Source: a bacterium
GTDB lineage: Bacteria; JACRDZ01; JAQUKH01
NCBI GenBank assembly: GCA_040754625.1
Contig: JBFMCF010000098.1
Location: forward strand, 1-43,679
Direction: 5' to 3'
Length of the DNA stretch: 43,679 nucleotides
How positions within the stretch are numbered: position 1 is the stretch's first letter; every line of letters starts with the position of its first letter. The translations under genes were made by a program, and so were the position numbers. The notes beneath the pieces are model-generated. The model saw nothing but the letters and a program-made list of their open reading frames with translations. It made no database searches and had not been told where the DNA came from. Positions 2,658 through 25,501 of this stretch are shown piece by piece.

Positions 2658-2732
2658 GCCGATGTAGCTCAATGGTAGAGCAAGTGATTTGTAATCACTA
2701 GGTTGGAGGTTCGATTCCTCTCATCGGCTCCA
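2658..2732 (+). tRNA. tRNA-Thr (anticodon TGT)
   Basis: 75 nt with encoded CCA. Acceptor stem GCCGATG pairs with CATCGGC; D arm GCTCAATGGTAGAGC; anticodon loop TTTGTAA gives TGT, reading ACA. The T arm GGAGGTTCGATTCCTC is standard. First gene of the cluster, equivalent in position to E. coli thrU. Confidence 0.97.
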
Positions 2733-2853
2733 GATTTTTGCGCAAGACGCAAAAATCAGAGCAATCGAGAATCGAAATTCGAAAATAGAGGAAAAAATTC
2801 GATTGCGGTCTATTTTCGATTATCAATTTTCAGAATTTCATATTTACCAATTC
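2733..2853 (+). repeat. Spacer with tRNA-trailer hairpin and repeat core (copy 1)
   Basis: Directly after CCA comes a perfect hairpin GATTTTTGCG-loop-CGCAAAAATC (2733-2757). It is followed by a ~34-base core at 2757-2790 containing AGAGCAATCGAGAATCG, which recurs after the next two tRNAs. The remainder is a diverged version of the downstream half seen in copies 2 and 3. Confidence 0.75.
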
Positions 2854-2939
2854 GGGGAGATACCCAAGTGGCTAAAGGGAACAGACTGTAAATCTGTCGT
2901 CTTCGGGCTTCGAAGGTTCGAATCCTTCTCTCCCCACCA
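2854..2939 (+). tRNA. tRNA-Tyr (anticodon GTA)
   Basis: 86 nt class II tRNA with a long variable arm (CGTCTTCGGGCTTCG region) and encoded CCA. Acceptor GGGGAGA pairs with TCTCCCC; anticodon loop CTGTAAA gives GTA. Second gene of the cluster, as E. coli tyrU. Confidence 0.97.
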
Positions 2940-3049
2940 GTTTTTTGCTCTTTGAGTAAAAAACAGAGCAATCGAGAATCTAGATTCGAAAATAGACAGA
3001 AATATTTTATTAATCTAATTTCGATTCTCAAATTTCGATTTTCTAAAAA
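2940..3049 (+). repeat. Inter-tRNA repeat unit (copy 2)
   Basis: A hairpin GTTTTTTGCTC-TTTGAGTAAAAAAC follows the tRNA. The shared core is at 2964-2996. A 44-base segment at 3005-3048 is identical to 3190-3233 in copy 3 and carries AATTTCGATTCTC, which pairs with core sequence in the same spacer. Confidence 0.8.
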
Positions 3050-3123
3050 GCGGGAGTAGCTCAATGGTAGAGTTCTAGCCTTCCAAGCTAGCCACGGGGG
3101 TTCGATTCCCCTCTCCCGCTCCA
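3050..3123 (+). tRNA. tRNA-Gly (anticodon TCC)
   Basis: 74 nt with encoded CCA. Acceptor GCGGGAG pairs with CTCCCGC; anticodon loop CTTCCAA gives TCC, reading GGA/GGG. Third gene, as E. coli glyT. GGG and GGA are the main glycine codons of the tuf genes in this window. Confidence 0.97.
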
Positions 3124-3234
3124 AGATTTTTGCACTTTCGCGCAAAAATCAGAGCAATCGAGAATCGAAATTCGAAAATAGAAAAAATCTTTTATTAATC
3201 TAATTTCGATTCTCAAATTTCGATTTTCTAAAAC
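3124..3234 (+). repeat. Inter-tRNA repeat unit (copy 3)
   Basis: Trailer hairpin ATTTTTGC / GCAAAAAT, then the shared core at 3150-3182, then the 44-base segment 3190-3233 identical to copy 2. GAGAATCGAAATT at 3160-3172 is the exact reverse complement of AATTTCGATTCTC at 3202-3214, so the unit can form a long hairpin between two tRNAs. Confidence 0.8.
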
Positions 3235-3310
3235 GCCCATGTAGCTCAGTTGGTAGAGCACATCCTTGGTAAGGATGAGGTCACCAGTTCAATCCTGGTC
3301 GTGGGCTCCA
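3235..3310 (+). tRNA. tRNA-Thr (anticodon GGT)
   Basis: 76 nt with encoded CCA. Acceptor GCCCATG pairs with CGTGGGC with a G-T pair at its inner end; anticodon loop TTGGTAA gives GGT, reading ACC/ACT. Fourth gene, as E. coli thrT, which there precedes tufB directly; here about 5.1 kb separates it from tuf. Its CCA end forms part of a hairpin CCACAC...GTGTGG (3308-3333). Confidence 0.97.
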
Positions 3311-4002: not shown

Positions 4003-4713
4003 ATGGCCGGAAAAAACTGTAAAAAGAAAATATATGAAAAAGCGATAAAAAATTGGCCGCAGGATGAGAGGCCCAGAGAGAAGCTCTTGAGATGCGGTGA
4101 ACATACTCTTAGCGATACGGAATTACTGGCCATAATATTACGGACAGGTATAAAAGGACAAAGTGCCGTTGATTTATCCAGGACGATTATCCAAAAGTTT
4201 AAAACATTTCGCAATATGGGCCATACAAATATTAAAGACTGGGACATAAAAGGTTTAGGAATGGCGAAGATTGCCCAGGTTAAAGCAGCTATTGAAATAG
4301 GCCGCAGGTTCGGAGAAGAAATTCTGAAGGGAAAAAAGGTAAAAATAGAAACTTCACATGATGTGGCAAAGATATTGATGAACAGGCTTAGAGACTTAAA
4401 AAAGGAAGTGTTTAAAGTGCTGTATCTGGATGTCAAAAACCAGGTAATTGAAATAAAAGAAATTGAAGAAGGTTCGGTAAACCAGGCAAGTCCAAATGTC
4501 AGGGAAATTTTACTGCCCGGTTTACAAAATTTTTCTTCGGGGATCATTTGTATCCATAATCATCCTTCAGGAGATTCATCTCCCAGTGAAGAGGACAGGC
4601 AATTTACAAGAAATGTAAAAGATGCCTGCGGCAGCCTGGGATTAAACTTTTTGGACCATATTATTATAGGCGACAATAAATACTTTAGTTTTGCGGATAA
4701 GGGATTGATATAA
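4003..4713 (+). CDS. radC: RadC / UPF0758 family JAMM-domain protein
   Basis: 236 residues, full length. A helix-hairpin-helix segment lies near 83-98 (GLGMAKIAQVKAAIE). The C-terminal MPN/JAMM domain has the metal motif IHNHPSGDSSPSEED with His185, His187 and Asp198 as expected zinc ligands. The biochemical role of RadC is still unsettled; a direct repair role in E. coli has been withdrawn and the family is common next to mobile DNA. It starts 20 bases after the sigma gene on the same strand, with no visible ribosome site, so it may be read through from the sigma transcript. Confidence 0.93.
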   Translation: MAGKNCKKKIYEKAIKNWPQDERPREKLLRCGEHTLSDTELLAIILRTGIKGQSAVDLSRTIIQKFKTFRNMGHTNIKDWDIKGLGMAKIAQVKAAIEIGRRFGEEILKGKKVKIETSHDVAKILMNRLRDLKKEVFKVLYLDVKNQVIEIKEIEEGSVNQASPNVREILLPGLQNFSSGIICIHNHPSGDSSPSEEDRQFTRNVKDACGSLGLNFLDHIIIGDNKYFSFADKGLI

Positions 4714-4720
4714 AAATTTT

Positions 4721-5092
4721 TTATTTGACCGCTCTGTTAAAGACTCTTTCAAGTTCTTCGGTATTTAATGATGCGGTTATAAACCCGGAAGCTCCGTAAT
4801 GCAGTAATTTCAAATATTCTTTATTTTTTAATTTGTCCCCCGAAGTTATCAGGGCGGGTATCATGGGGAACAATTCTTTTAATTTTTTTAAAATCTCTGC
4901 TTGATTTTCTATTTCTTTAATAATACCAATTATAACCAGATTTATCCGGACATTATTCATAATCTCCAGGGCCATTTCTAAATTTAGGGCAAACATTATA
5001 AGATGTCCTTTTTCTGCCAGGGTCAGGCCCAGGGAATCAAGAATTTTAGGGTTTTTGTTAATAATTAGAATGTTGAATTTTTTTTGTCTCAT
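4721..5092 (-). CDS. Degenerate (pseudo) response-regulator receiver domain protein
   Basis: 123 residues with the alternating pattern of a CheY-like receiver. The key residues are gone. The acidic pair after strand 1 is replaced (IINKNPKI, 10-17), the phosphoacceptor position in NLVIIGIIKE (51-60) is Gly56 rather than Asp, and the conserved Lys in GASGFITASLN (100-110) is Ala107. Thr83 (LITSGD) is kept. It therefore cannot be phosphorylated in the usual way and would act, if at all, as a protein-binding module. Last gene of a three-gene minus-strand cassette; it faces radC tail to tail with 7 bases between stops. Ribosome site AAAGGA. Confidence 0.75.
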   Translation of the reverse strand: MRQKKFNILIINKNPKILDSLGLTLAEKGHLIMFALNLEMALEIMNNVRINLVIIGIIKEIENQAEILKKLKELFPMIPALITSGDKLKNKEYLKLLHYGASGFITASLNTEELERVFNRAVK

Positions 5093-5106
5093 AATAGATA
5101 ATCCTT

Positions 5107-5331
5107 TCAGTGTTTTCCCAGCGCATTTAAAATTTCTTTTTTTAACGCTCCTTTGGTTTTTACGCTGTTTATGTCAAGTGACAGGTTCTTAAAGAGAAAA
5201 AAGAAATGGTTAAATATCATTGAACGGGGGATATTGGCATTTTTTTTGCAGCATAATTTATTTAAAAAAACTAATTCTTTTTTATTCAGCTTTAGAAAGA
5301 TAATTCTGTCTTCCTTTTTATTATTTTTCAT
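5107..5331 (-). CDS. Small ribbon-helix-helix-like protein, diverged paralogue of the gene at 5386
   Basis: 74 residues, basic. No exact family recognised. The second half follows the same pattern as its upstream neighbour: NIPRSMIF...L.LDINSVK...LKKEILNAL here against RLPKSYIL...LKIDVMGIK...LRVRVSEAV there. That suggests tandem duplication and divergence of an RHH-type DNA-binding protein. The N-terminal strand would be DRIIFLKLNKKEL. The start has a ribosome site AAAGGG. The downstream receiver gene begins 14 bases after this stop, so all three are probably one operon. Confidence 0.6.
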   Translation of the reverse strand: MKNNKKEDRIIFLKLNKKELVFLNKLCCKKNANIPRSMIFNHFFFLFKNLSLDINSVKTKGALKKEILNALGKH

Positions 5332-5385
5332 TTTTATTTCCCTTTACATGAAAAGTTGTTTAGGGCTTTTCAAAAATTAAAAAAA

Positions 5386-5664
5386 TCAATTTCTTTTTTT
5401 ATATGCTGCCACTGCCTCGGAGACCCTGACTCTCAGATCTTTTTCTTCCTTTATTCCCATAACATCAATTTTTAAATCCATCATCGCGTCTAAAATGGCC
5501 CTTAAAATATATGATTTAGGTAGTCTGTATCCTCCGGACCTTCTCATTGTGCTTCGCAGATTTTCCAGCCAATCATCTATTTCGGGAGTAATTGTAACAG
5601 GTATTCTGATAAGGTCTTTTCGGACATTACCGCGAAAACGTTTATATACAGTTCTTTTTTCCAT
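5386..5664 (-). CDS. Ribbon-helix-helix DNA-binding protein
   Basis: 92 residues. The layout is a basic N-terminus, then the strand LIRIPVTITPEIDDWL and helices through RLPKSYILRAILDAM, which fits an RHH (MetJ/Arc-type) fold, a family of small dimeric repressors. No enzyme motif is present. It heads a minus-strand cassette (RHH, RHH-like paralogue, pseudo-receiver) that lies between the sigma and anti-sigma genes. A -10 box sits 10 bases before the ATG and there is no ribosome site, so its mRNA is probably leaderless. Targets are unknown; autoregulation of the divergent 5665-5781 region is plausible. Confidence 0.7.
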   Translation of the reverse strand: MEKRTVYKRFRGNVRKDLIRIPVTITPEIDDWLENLRSTMRRSGGYRLPKSYILRAILDAMMDLKIDVMGIKEEKDLRVRVSEAVAAYKKRN

Positions 5665-5680: not shown

Positions 5681-5781
5681 ATGTTTTGTAAAAAAAATCA
5701 AGTAAAATGTCAGAAAAATATCCATATTTTTTACCGCAACTTTTTCCTTAAATCTGTGTTTATACATATGGAGGCCAAAAA

Positions 5782-6276
5782 ATGAGTTGCCGTGAAATAA
5801 AAAGCTCGCTGCCTTTATTCCTTGCAGGGGAGTTGCCGCAGGATGAAAAATCCAGGATAAAAATACATCTTGAGAAATGTTTAAATTGTAAAAAAGAATT
5901 GGAACTATTTCAAAAAAGCTGGGATTTGCTTGATATTGCTGATAAAATCCAGCCTTCAATTGCTTTTAAATCGAAAGTCCGCCGGAAGATTTCTGAAAAC
6001 GGATATGACTGTCAGAAAAATAAATTTTTAAGGATGCCTGAATTTTTGCCAAAATGGGTGCCTGCGGCAGTTATAATGTTTTTATTAATGACCGGCGGCG
6101 GCGGGTTGTATTTAAGAAAAATTTTTATAAACCAAAGGATCCAGAATTACGCTTTGATATTTGAATATGAAAATACCCGGATCCCGGATGACCTGGATTT
6201 AGCGGAGGAATTGGAATTAATTGAAAATATGCACGTGCTGGAGGAGGTTGAATTAATTGATTCGATTAACTTGTAA
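5782..6276 (+). CDS. Membrane anti-sigma factor with zinc-finger (zf-HC2) domain and acidic tail
   Basis: 164 residues. The cytoplasmic N-terminus is a ZAS domain with Cys3 and the motif HLEKCLNC (His29, Cys33, Cys36), which holds ECF sigma factors inactive. One membrane helix spans about 92-111. The outer segment (112-164) ends in a run of alternating acidic and aliphatic residues (DLDLAEELELIENM, then LEEVELID). Ribosome site ATGGAGG before ATG 5782. The partner is most likely the ECF sigma at 3407. The acidic tail resembles the mature part of the next gene product, suggesting both bind a common basic partner (inference). Confidence 0.85.
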   Translation: MSCREIKSSLPLFLAGELPQDEKSRIKIHLEKCLNCKKELELFQKSWDLLDIADKIQPSIAFKSKVRRKISENGYDCQKNKFLRMPEFLPKWVPAAVIMFLLMTGGGGLYLRKIFINQRIQNYALIFEYENTRIPDDLDLAEELELIENMHVLEEVELIDSINL

Positions 6277-6529
6277 GGTAGTTGTATTGACTTTATTTAT
6301 CGCAGTGATTTCGGTTTTTATGGAAAATGGGGATATTGTCTTCGCGGAAGATTCCGTTGAAGTTATTACAGGGGAAGATATGGACATAGTTGAAAATCTT
6401 GAATTGCTGGAGAATGAAGATATCGAAATGTTTAGGAAGATGGAAATTTTAGAAGAAGACGATTTTGAATCGGTTGAAGAATTGGATGTCCTTGAACCGG
6501 AGGTGTCTGAAGATGAAGAAAAAAAATAA
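6257..6529 (+). CDS. Small secreted, extremely acidic protein of the sigma module
   Basis: 90 residues. A signal peptide covers about 1-30 (hydrophobic VVVLTLFIAVISVF, cleavage likely after VFA). In the mature part 27 of 60 residues are Asp or Glu, in LE/LD-rich words (VENLELLENEDIEMF, VEELDVLEPE) like those at the end of the anti-sigma factor. The start is TTG at 6257, fixed by the strong site GAGGAGG at 6241-6247 inside the anti-sigma gene; the two genes overlap by 20 bases, implying translational coupling. No family recognised. It could be a decoy or adaptor for the basic DUF3106-type protein encoded next. Confidence 0.75.
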   Translation: MIRLTCKVVVLTLFIAVISVFMENGDIVFAEDSVEVITGEDMDIVENLELLENEDIEMFRKMEILEEDDFESVEELDVLEPEVSEDEEKK

Positions 6530-7061
6530 AATAATGTTTATCCTTGCGGTGAATCTTTGCATTTTTTTGGGATGGAAAGGGCCTTTTGTATTTGCGGGTG
6601 TGGATAACCCGGGAATTAAAGTAAATGGAGCATTGATAGAAAAATGGAAAAGGTTATCTCCTAAAGAAAGAGAAATGATAAGGGACAGGTACCGTCTTTT
6701 CAAAGATATTCCTCTGTCCGAAAGGGAAAGCTTTAAAAGAAATTTAAAACGGTTTAACGCCCTTTCGCCTGAAAAAAAAGCGGAAGTTAAGCGTAACTGG
6801 AAAAGGATGCAGAATTTATCGGTAACGGACAGAAAAAGGATTTTATTAAATTATGAAAAATGGAAAAATTTACCTCCCGGGAAAAGAGAAGAATTAAAAA
6901 AGTTATATAATAAGTTTAAAGAAATGCGGTCTGAAGAACGCAGGCTTTTTTGGGAGAAACAAAAACGCTGGCAGTCTTTGACCCCTGAAGAAAAGAGGCG
7001 TTTACGGCAGGAATACCAGATAAGAGAAAGAAACCGCAAAAGACCGCCTCCGCGGGAATAA
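6513..7061 (+). CDS. Secreted DUF3106-type protein made of seven 18-residue repeats
   Basis: 182 residues from ATG 6513, chosen because GGAGGTG lies at 6499-6505 and a signal peptide starts there (MKKKNKIMFI...FVFA); the frame is open further upstream but without a site. The mature part is strongly basic. Residues 43-168 are seven contiguous 18-residue repeats without gaps, consensus x-K/R-W/F-x-x-L-S-P-x-E-R/K-x-x-I/L-x-x-x-Y, then a Pro/Arg tail. This fits the DUF3106 family, which often sits beside ECF sigma/anti-sigma pairs. It overlaps the acidic gene by 17 bases. Predicted all-helical and periplasmic; a role as sensor or ligand of the acidic partners is inference. Confidence 0.82.
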   Translation: MKKKNKIMFILAVNLCIFLGWKGPFVFAGVDNPGIKVNGALIEKWKRLSPKEREMIRDRYRLFKDIPLSERESFKRNLKRFNALSPEKKAEVKRNWKRMQNLSVTDRKRILLNYEKWKNLPPGKREELKKLYNKFKEMRSEERRLFWEKQKRWQSLTPEEKRRLRQEYQIRERNRKRPPPRE

Positions 7062-7145: not shown

Positions 7146-8162
7146 ATGAAAAATAAAGCAGTAAGCATATTTTTGACAGTATTTGTGTTTTCCGTTTTTT
7201 TTACCGGATGCAATATGTTTGGAAAAGATGACGAAAATAATCCGACATCATCAACAACTACCGGGGGAGGCACTACGACGACGGGAACTGCTTCTACATC
7301 TGACCAGAGTGATGTGGAAGAGGCTCTGGCAAACGATGATCTGTTTACCCAGGAAATGAGCGATATGCTGGACGAAGATGAAAGTATGATGGAACTGTCA
7401 TCCAAAGATGATGGATTTAAACTTTCCCCGCTGAGTCTTATTGACACAACTCTGCCGAGGGCAGAATATCATCAACGCTGGAGAAGACAAAGAACGGGAC
7501 TTTCGAATATTAGTAAAACGTTGGAATTTGGTAAAAGTGGTGATACAAGCTATTGCAATATTACAGTTGCCAGAAATATTACGGGACTGTTTTGGGTTGA
7601 TACGACCCGCGACGGCATAAAGAATCCCGGGCATAAACCTTTCGCGGATACAATTACCCACAAGTGGTATTTTGAGAAATATCCCGGCAGGGGCTGGCAC
7701 CTGGCAAAAATTTCCCCGCGTGAAATAAAATTGACTGATACATCAAAACAAAAAGTCTTTATTGATAAAATCCAGGTTGTGTCTAATGGTCAGACGGTTA
7801 TAGAAATAACCTCGCCGGGCCAGATGATTTTAAGGGATAGCCTGCCTCTTTTTACCTCGGGGCAAGAGGTTAAAGTAATGGCGACAGTTAGAAATACCAG
7901 CCCAAGTTATTATCCGGAGACCTTTGTTTTCCTGCACCATTTTTCAGCGTTTGGAATACATAAACGTTTAAAGATGGTCGATGACGGAACAAACGGTGAT
8001 GATATCGCCAATGACGGAATCTGGACAGGTACATGGAGGGTTTGGGGAAATTTAAGGCATTATGCGGTTATTGACGTTTTGGATTCAAAATGTCTCCAGA
8101 ACCAGACAGATGACGATTATAATTCAAACGCGTGGGGTTTGCCATACAGGGTGATACCTTAA
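7146..8162 (+). CDS. Lipoprotein of unknown function
   Basis: 338 residues. A lipoprotein signal (1-21) ends in the lipobox FFTGC with Cys22 as lipidation site. A low-complexity Thr/Gly/Ser linker follows (about 33-52), then a short acidic region. The C-terminal half looks like beta-sandwich material: KVMATVRNTSP and DDGTNGDDIANDGIWTGTW. The latter resembles a 'DDG..GD..A.DGIYT' segment seen in extracellular Ig-like domains, where it may bind calcium. The start has a strong site AAAGGAGTG. It has its own promoter and a terminator at 8188, so it is a single-gene unit, possibly controlled by the neighbouring sigma factor; I see no proof of that. Confidence 0.8.
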   Translation: MKNKAVSIFLTVFVFSVFFTGCNMFGKDDENNPTSSTTTGGGTTTTGTASTSDQSDVEEALANDDLFTQEMSDMLDEDESMMELSSKDDGFKLSPLSLIDTTLPRAEYHQRWRRQRTGLSNISKTLEFGKSGDTSYCNITVARNITGLFWVDTTRDGIKNPGHKPFADTITHKWYFEKYPGRGWHLAKISPREIKLTDTSKQKVFIDKIQVVSNGQTVIEITSPGQMILRDSLPLFTSGQEVKVMATVRNTSPSYYPETFVFLHHFSAFGIHKRLKMVDDGTNGDDIANDGIWTGTWRVWGNLRHYAVIDVLDSKCLQNQTDDDYNSNAWGLPYRVIP

Positions 8163-8343: not shown

Positions 8344-9630
8344 ATAACGTAAAACGTAAAAAGTGTATAGAGTTAAAGTTATATACGTGTTACGAATCAC
8401 GAATTAGGTATTTAACGAGGAGGAATAAAAAATGGCTAAGGAAAAATTTGAGAGGAAGAAGCCGCATGTAAATATAGGGACAATAGGGCATGTAGATCAT
8501 GGAAAGACGACGTTAACGAGCTCGATAACGAAGGTATTATCAAAGAGCGGTTTAGCGCAGGCAAGGAACTATGATGAAATAGACAACGCACCGGAAGAGA
8601 AGGAAAGAGGAGTAACAATCAATGTGCATCACACGGAATATGAGACAGCGAACCGGCATTACGCGCATGTAGACTGTCCCGGTCACGCGGATTATATAAA
8701 GAATATGATAACGGGGGCGGCGCAGATGGACGGAGGGATACTGGTGGTAAGCGCGGCAGACGGGCCTATGCCGCAGACAAGGGAACATATACTGTTGGCA
8801 AGGCAGGTAGGGCTGCCTGCGATAGTGGTATTTTTGAATAAGATAGACATGGTAGATGATAAAGAGCTTTTGGATTTGGTGGAGTTGGAAGTAAGGGAAT
8901 TATTGAGCGCGTATAATTTTCCCGGGGAGGAGATACCTGTAATAAAAGGGAGCGCGTATAAGGCGATGGAATGCGCATGCGGGAAGAGAGAATGCCAGTG
9001 GTGCGGGAAGATATATGAGTTAATGGACGCGGTGGACAAATATATACCATTGCCGTCAAGGGACGTTGACAAGCCGTTTTTGATGTCAGTAGAGGATGTG
9101 TTTACGATAACTGGACGTGGGACGGTAGCGACAGGGAGAGTGGAGAGGGGGATAGTAAAGGTAGGGGAAGAAGTGGAAATAGTCGGGATAAAGGACACGA
9201 AGAAGACGGTAGTGACTGGGATAGAGATGTTCCGCAAACTGCTGGATGAAGGAAGGGCGGGTGACAACATAGGCGCGTTGTTAAGAGGCGTGGAGAAGAA
9301 TGATGTGGAAAGGGGCCAGGTATTGGCGAAGCCCGGGAGTATAACGCCGCACAAGAAATTTAAAGCAGAGGTGTATATATTGACAAAGGAAGAAGGAGGG
9401 CGTCACACGCCGTTTTTCAACGGGTACCGTCCGCAGTTTTATTTAAGGACGACGGATGTAACAGGAATGACGAAACTTCCGGAAGGTGTGGAGATGGTGA
9501 TGCCTGGAGACAATGTAACAATGGAAGTGGAGTTAATATCAAAGATAGCAATGGAAAAAGGGTTAAAATTCGCGATACGCGAGGGCGGCCGGACGATAGG
9601 TGCCGGGGTCATCGCGGAGATACTGGAGTA
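8344..9630 (+). repeat. 1287-bp direct repeat, copy 1 (tuf gene plus 88 bp upstream)
   Basis: Copy 2 is at 24214-25500. The bases on either side differ. No difference was seen on visual comparison, including synonymous sites and the non-coding leader. The repeat ends after the second base of the stop codon (TAG here, TAA in copy 2). Confidence 0.93.
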
Positions 9631-9631
9631 G
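8432..9631 (+). CDS. tuf: Elongation factor Tu (copy 1)
   Basis: 399 residues. G1 GHVDHGKT (19-26), Thr62 in RGVTI (G2), G3 DCPGH (81-85), G4 NKID (136-139), G5 GSA (173-175), then domains 2 and 3 with [13 protein letters not shown] and FNGYRPQFY. It brings aminoacyl-tRNA to the ribosome. Two oddities. A cysteine group C181-x-C183-x4-C188-x2-C191 sits in a short insert after G5 and looks like a metal site. The codon use is unlike its neighbours: isoleucine is 27 ATA, 2 ATC and no ATT. Strong site AGGAGGA. First gene of the nusG-rpl operon, in the place of E. coli tufB. Confidence 0.98.
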
Positions 9632-24217: not shown

Positions 24218-25500
24218 CGTAAAACGTAAAAAGTGTATAGAGTTAAAGTTATATACGTGTTACGAATCACGAATTAGGTATTTAACGAGGAGGAATAAAA
24301 AATGGCTAAGGAAAAATTTGAGAGGAAGAAGCCGCATGTAAATATAGGGACAATAGGGCATGTAGATCATGGAAAGACGACGTTAACGAGCTCGATAACG
24401 AAGGTATTATCAAAGAGCGGTTTAGCGCAGGCAAGGAACTATGATGAAATAGACAACGCACCGGAAGAGAAGGAAAGAGGAGTAACAATCAATGTGCATC
24501 ACACGGAATATGAGACAGCGAACCGGCATTACGCGCATGTAGACTGTCCCGGTCACGCGGATTATATAAAGAATATGATAACGGGGGCGGCGCAGATGGA
24601 CGGAGGGATACTGGTGGTAAGCGCGGCAGACGGGCCTATGCCGCAGACAAGGGAACATATACTGTTGGCAAGGCAGGTAGGGCTGCCTGCGATAGTGGTA
24701 TTTTTGAATAAGATAGACATGGTAGATGATAAAGAGCTTTTGGATTTGGTGGAGTTGGAAGTAAGGGAATTATTGAGCGCGTATAATTTTCCCGGGGAGG
24801 AGATACCTGTAATAAAAGGGAGCGCGTATAAGGCGATGGAATGCGCATGCGGGAAGAGAGAATGCCAGTGGTGCGGGAAGATATATGAGTTAATGGACGC
24901 GGTGGACAAATATATACCATTGCCGTCAAGGGACGTTGACAAGCCGTTTTTGATGTCAGTAGAGGATGTGTTTACGATAACTGGACGTGGGACGGTAGCG
25001 ACAGGGAGAGTGGAGAGGGGGATAGTAAAGGTAGGGGAAGAAGTGGAAATAGTCGGGATAAAGGACACGAAGAAGACGGTAGTGACTGGGATAGAGATGT
25101 TCCGCAAACTGCTGGATGAAGGAAGGGCGGGTGACAACATAGGCGCGTTGTTAAGAGGCGTGGAGAAGAATGATGTGGAAAGGGGCCAGGTATTGGCGAA
25201 GCCCGGGAGTATAACGCCGCACAAGAAATTTAAAGCAGAGGTGTATATATTGACAAAGGAAGAAGGAGGGCGTCACACGCCGTTTTTCAACGGGTACCGT
25301 CCGCAGTTTTATTTAAGGACGACGGATGTAACAGGAATGACGAAACTTCCGGAAGGTGTGGAGATGGTGATGCCTGGAGACAATGTAACAATGGAAGTGG
25401 AGTTAATATCAAAGATAGCAATGGAAAAAGGGTTAAAATTCGCGATACGCGAGGGCGGCCGGACGATAGGTGCCGGGGTCATCGCGGAGATACTGGAGTA
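24214..25500 (+). repeat. 1287-bp direct repeat, copy 2 (tuf gene plus upstream spacer)
   Basis: Matches 8344-9630 with no difference seen. Here the 5' boundary falls one base before the fusA stop codon and the 3' boundary after TA of the tuf stop, so the whole fusA-tuf spacer and tuf coding sequence are shared. Confidence 0.93.
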
Positions 25501-25501
25501 A
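24302..25501 (+). CDS. tuf: Elongation factor Tu (copy 2)
   Basis: 399 residues, identical in protein and, as far as I can see, DNA to the copy at 8432, apart from the stop codon (TAA). All GTPase motifs and the C181/C183/C188/C191 cysteine group are as described there. It sits in the classical str position after fusA, where E. coli has tufA, and runs on to rpsJ with a 2-base gap. Because both copies are identical their combined dosage serves one protein pool. Confidence 0.98.

Follow-up and report, generated by a model that had tools for sequence, protein, structure and literature searches.

The anti-sigma factor encoded in the window, by which we mean the whole stretch of 43,679 nucleotides analysed here, carries on its predicted periplasmic side a six-residue repeat that recurs in a small secreted protein encoded next to it, and across genomes this repeat is found almost exclusively upstream of a gene encoding a secreted protein of the DUF3106 family. 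The three proteins are referred to below as P1 (anti-sigma factor), P2 (small hexad protein) and P3 (DUF3106 protein). Together with an extracytoplasmic function (ECF) sigma factor they form a recurring unit, which points to a so far undescribed way of sensing envelope trouble.

Gene organization and the partner sigma factor

The genes encoding P1, P2 and P3 follow each other on the same strand (Table 1), with overlaps of 20 nt between P1 and P2 and 17 nt between P2 and P3. The initial annotation described three overlapping genes with embedded ribosome sites, and our analysis agreed with this, as a strong Shine-Dalgarno sequence was identified 7-9 nt before each start. It also proposed that the proteins are made in a fixed ratio; the overlaps suggest translational coupling, not stoichiometry. 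The start of P3 was assigned to the ATG at 6513, while a longer version of the open reading frame opens at a TTG at 6465. Directly downstream of P3, positions 7146-8162 encode a secreted, lipoprotein-like product in which a choice-of-anchor X domain was matched (6.8e-8).

Table 1. Positions of the P1-P3 gene set and of the probable partner sigma factor in the window.
Feature	Position	Strand	Evidence or sequence
ECF sigma factor, probable partner of P1	3407-3982	+	Sigma70_r2 2.2e-18; r4_2 1.1e-14
P1 ribosome site	5770-5774		GGAGG
P1, zf-HC2 membrane anti-sigma factor	5782-6276	+	Pfam zf-HC2 3.7e-8
P1 hexad-repeat tail, predicted periplasmic side	6175-6270	+	tail profile match 2.9e-9 (the window's own tail belongs to this profile)
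P2 ribosome site, within the P1 gene	6240-6247		GGAGGAGG
P2, small secreted acidic hexad protein	6257-6529	+	TTG start; hexads; signal peptide
P2 signal peptide	~6257-6346		ends in IVFA
P3 ribosome site, within the P2 gene	6499-6505		GGAGGTG
P3, secreted basic DUF3106 protein, predicted helical solenoid	6513-7061	+	DUF3106 2.6e-20
P3 signal peptide	~6513-6596
DUF3106 domain (PF11304) of P3	6636-7022	+	73.3 bits (curated cut-off 24.3)

The ECF sigma factor gene is located about 1.8 kb upstream of P1, separated from it by radC (4003-4713) and three genes on the minus strand. The host genome encodes five full-length ECF sigma factors and five zf-HC2 anti-sigma factors, and since the other four sets are adjacent pairs, this sigma factor is by elimination the probable partner of P1. 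In a sigma factor tree its nearest neighbours were, with weak support, the sigma factors of two other loci with the unit (L026 and L021). We rejected the idea that the unit has one sigma factor lineage, as these sigma factors clustered but did not form one clade, and the deep branches of the tree were not resolved. When an ECF promoter was looked for before the sigma factor gene and P1, AACTT was found within about 100 nt of both, with no matching -10 element. The three small minus-strand genes occupy 4721-5664, and one of them is receiver-like (response regulator, 2.8e-6), just below the cut-off.

The hexad tail of P1 and its resemblance to P2

P1 matched the zf-HC2 domain at 33.8 bits (curated Pfam cut-off 22.2), and its family profile matched the solved structures of RsiW (1.2e-7) and ChrR (4e-5). 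The protein has one membrane helix, followed by an outer tail of 54 residues in which 13 acidic residues stand against 4 basic ones. The "LE/LD-rich words" previously noticed in both this tail and P2 proved to be a real six-residue repeat that scores above shuffled sequences, with the consensus L-[DE]-h-h-[EQ]-[ND] (h = hydrophobic) and about four copies in the P1 tail. The best hexad score of the tail was 18/18, corresponding to a shuffle p of 0.003, which is the floor of the test. In the AlphaFold model of P1 the zinc-finger region was confident, and the tail was drawn as helical at a pLDDT of about 50, a value that is not evidence of a helix.

P2 obtained no family assignment in Pfam and NCBIfam scans, and the 27 acidic residues counted earlier among its 60 mature residues are exact. 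Using a profile of P1 tails from other genomes, from which the tail of the window's own genome was excluded, P2 of the window scored 14.9 bits and all 24 P2 proteins tested were matched at 14.4-43.2 bits, as compared to a maximum of 8.8 bits among 960 shuffled P2 sequences. Moreover, a stretch of 43 nt is 72% identical between the tail DNA and the P2 DNA of the window, thus making duplication of the P1 tail a plausible origin of P2, as judged from the sequences.

P2 was found in 24 of the 39 tail-bearing loci and was absent from the remaining 15. Its net charge varied from -25 to +2 (median -2.5), and an acidic P2 was therefore rejected as the conserved principle; the trait conserved between P2 and the tail is the hydrophobic/acidic hexad and not acidity as such. 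The locus-by-locus correspondence between tail and P2 gave a p of 0.02, which changed to 0.16 without one Met/His-rich family, so that matching of the two proteins per locus was rejected as significant solely through this family. Its members (L022, L023, and L024) carry Met/His-rich hexads (MDMYEH) in tail and P2 alike, and these possibly bind metal.

Properties of P3

DUF3106 is a family without assigned function, and what is added here is its connection to an anti-sigma hexad tail: in the literature searched, mostly outside subscription journals and supplements, no paper named DUF3106 and no earlier description was found. In agreement with the initial view of P3 as secreted and strongly basic, the protein has a signal peptide, and its mature part contains 48 Lys and Arg residues versus 23 Asp and Glu residues. 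As signal peptides were identified on both P2 and P3, neither of the small proteins is predicted to be cytoplasmic.

The AlphaFold model of P3 (18 sequences) shows successive helices with a period of 18 residues and a pLDDT of 90-97 over residues 41-180 except the last few, and P3 is hence predicted to be a solenoid with one helix per 18 residues, of which the overall curvature is uncertain given a pTM of 0.56. Extended helical repeats are a usual shape for binding peptides. No sequence relative of P3 was detected in a PDB sequence search, and the model matched no fold in the PDB at E 0.001 and likewise none in a viral fold library. The Spy/CpxP family profile was not matched, and the Metal_resist model gave an E of 0.38, below cut-off. 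A relationship of P3 to CpxP/Spy or CnrX was thus unsupported by profile, PDB sequence and fold.

Linkage of the hexad tail to DUF3106 across genomes

The loci scored comprised the DUF3106 loci L003-L031 and 27 named loci from metagenome-assembled genomes (L047-L073). A hexad tail was located downstream of the anti-sigma membrane helix in most DUF3106 loci with an ECF sigma factor, and an ECF sigma factor lay upstream of DUF3106 in 25 of the 27 named loci. The order of sigma factor, hexad-tail anti-sigma factor and DUF3106 recurs in many phyla, and the co-occurrence of anti-sigma factor, small motif protein and DUF3106 for which the initial annotation proposed a search was thus found as a recurrent unit. 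Shuffled tails seldom attained the hexad score of the tails of the unit; candidates were pre-filtered at a hexad score of 12, so that their own score distribution is biased upwards, whereas the comparison with control tails and the profile searches are independent of this filter. The highest score among about 26 scorable tails of zf-HC2 anti-sigma factors without DUF3106 was 14, and none of them reached 16/18.

A profile of 34 positions built from the tails alone was searched against 386 diverse genomes, resulting in 24 matches in 18 genomes. In 22 cases the match lay upstream of DUF3106 at a distance of no more than about 1 kb. One of the two remaining matches was an artefact, lying antisense to a repeat in ribosomal protein S1, and the other was weak. 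Several loci in this search had fed the profile, and its recall is therefore partly circular, while the absence of matches elsewhere is not. In 95 genomes from the phylum of genome G088, of which few can have contributed to the tail profile, we obtained 64 tail matches in 57 genomes, every one of them upstream of DUF3106 on the same strand at a distance of 105-630 nt, and no tail match was found in any genome without an above-cut-off DUF3106. The corresponding Fisher p of 1e-20 is descriptive only, as related genomes are not independent. The G088 locus has the same sequence as L053, for which the record is named Rokubacteria.

The window itself contains the unit, with tail and DUF3106 on the same strand within about 1 kb, and a congener of its genome (G001) had neither tail nor DUF3106. 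Named carriers of the tail belong to Rokubacteria, Methylomirabilota, Brocadiales (Planctomycetota), Desulfobacteraceae (Thermodesulfobacteriota), and Bdellovibrionales, corresponding to five phyla or more. In Gammaproteobacteria, sigma factor, anti-sigma factor and DUF3106 are kept, and the anti-sigma tail ends in an acidic-aromatic LDFYxWL-like motif that matches the hexad profile weakly; hexad-less anti-sigma factors with such ends were observed in L003, L061, L062, L066, L070, and L071. In some gammaproteobacterial loci, a gene upstream of DUF3106 encodes a secreted protein that is small and acidic and contains an FLGEW-like word.

In three genomes a FecR domain, which is familiar from ECF signalling, is fused N-terminally to DUF3106 (L129:6989-8383, L130:2469-3740, and L131:3-1280), and in L130 a complete set of sigma factor, hexad-tail anti-sigma factor and P2 precedes the fusion. 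In L129, a secreted helical protein with LTEEQ and LSPVQQ words is encoded at 5984-6580, after the anti-sigma factor and before the P2-like gene; it appears Spy/CpxP-like by eye and has no Pfam match.

The tails were net negative in all 39 loci (median -8) and P3 was net positive in all 27 named loci (+2 to +28), thus making charge attraction between tail and P3 plausible. Because of the charge range of P2, the electrostatic idea fits tail and P3 but not P2 generally. The initial interpretation therefore holds with regard to the recurring unit, the exported small proteins and a plausible attraction between tail and P3. In contrast, the free acidic protein that it envisaged as competitor cannot be kept as a general principle, since P2 varies in charge and is missing from the 15 loci mentioned above.

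Proposed mechanism and alternative explanations

We speculate that the unit is an envelope-sensing control unit of an ECF sigma factor in which P3 docks on the P1 tail and P2 copies this tail in soluble form; this is the explanation we prefer, although we would put its chance of being correct slightly below even. P1 would keep the sigma factor inside the cell and expose its hexad tail outside the inner membrane, where P3 may act as a dedicated periplasmic partner, with the acidic residues of the tail placed on the basic surface of P3 and the hydrophobic hexad residues in its grooves. Through its docking, P3 would determine if P1 is retained or cleaved. Stress in the envelope, e.g., in the form of unfolded or polyanionic material, may occupy P3, which would then leave the tail and allow P1 to be cleaved at site 1 and subsequently at site 2 by an RseP-like protease, setting the sigma factor free. 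Where present, P2 would compete for P3 and tune the threshold of the response. This reading is favoured by the recurring gene order, the near-exclusive linkage of tail and DUF3106, the motif common to tail and P2, the opposite charges of tail and P3, the predicted shape of P3 and the FecR fusions. Points against it are the 15 tail-bearing loci that lack P2, the different tail of Gammaproteobacteria, the low confidence of the modelled tail and the correspondence of tail and P2 per locus being confined to one family. An M50 site-2 protease, belonging to a nearly universal family, is encoded in the host genome (2.5e-63). We consider unlikely a more detailed version, with P2 acting as a secreted decoy of the anti-sigma tail, the P3 solenoid reading the hexads one per helix, and tail, decoy and envelope ligand competing for a single groove to set sigma release. 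A helical hexad has a rise of about 9 angstrom, close to the distance that usually separates adjacent helices of an alpha solenoid.

To our knowledge, no ECF system with a soluble copy of the anti-sigma tail has been described. The RseA-RseB system differs in that RseB is not a DUF3106 protein and, as far as we know, RseA has no hexad tail and no tail-mimic protein accompanies it. RseB acting on RseA and CnrX acting on CnrY are precedents of periplasmic control of anti-sigma factors (PMC4598750). In the sigma-E system of E. coli, the periplasmic part of the membrane anti-sigma factor is bound by a periplasmic protein of the same operon, and in the CnrH system of Cupriavidus metallidurans a periplasmic helical sensor domain controls the adjacent anti-sigma factor (PMC4598750); for P3, both binding and control are proposals. 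Unlike P3, CnrX senses metal and belongs to a different family, to which the Metal_resist model is related. CpxP is a basic all-helical periplasmic protein that is docked by charge on the acidic sensor domain of CpxA and removed by stress (PMC4160245), and by analogy P3 may dock on its acidic partner in a similar manner. However, the partner of CpxP is a kinase and not an anti-sigma factor, and P3 resembles neither CpxP nor Spy in predicted fold or sequence.

Alternatively, P3 could be an effector, such as a periplasmic chaperone or envelope binder, made by its own sigma factor, with the tail sensing free P3 as feedback and P2 being a placeholder ligand or co-chaperone. The targets of a sigma factor are often co-operonic, and gene linkage by itself is also compatible with P3 as a mere target gene; in addition, a basic, helical and secreted P3 would be suited to chaperone work, and P2 is optional. 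On the other hand, DUF3106 is linked to the tail motif itself and not to ECF systems generally, indicating contact between tail and P3. Feedback likewise requires this contact, so that the effector role differs from the docking proposed above mainly in the direction of regulation. We regard it as rather doubtful but worth keeping in view.

Somewhat less probable still is that tail and P2 bind each other, or that they have a third envelope component (lipid, LPS, or metal) as their common ligand, with P3 as a separate helper. The motif common to tail and P2 would suit such an arrangement, as would metal binding by the Met/His-rich hexads of one family, but 15 of 39 loci have tail and P3 and lack P2, whereas the tail almost never occurs without DUF3106. 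Finally, similarity of acidic leucine-rich tails could be a chance or compositional artefact without functional meaning, given a short, low-complexity motif and a profile match that was indeed an antisense repeat artefact. With shuffles of the same composition scoring far lower, control anti-sigma tails lacking the motif and a near-exclusive linkage to DUF3106, we find this explanation highly improbable.

ECF sigma factors rank with the commonest signalling systems of bacteria, and the input of many of them is not known. With the unit described here, one widespread ECF type that crosses phyla gains a defined putative sensing motif and two defined candidate partners, and DUF3106 a function hypothesis based on context. 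For a direct test of the proposal, one short peptide and the two small, soluble proteins would suffice.

Other features of the window

Two genes encoding elongation factor Tu (8432-9631 and 24302-25501) specify identical proteins; gene conversion probably keeps the two copies alike. Positions 2658-3310 contain four tRNA genes (Thr, Tyr, Gly, and Thr), and their spacers have a repeat of about 98 nt in common.
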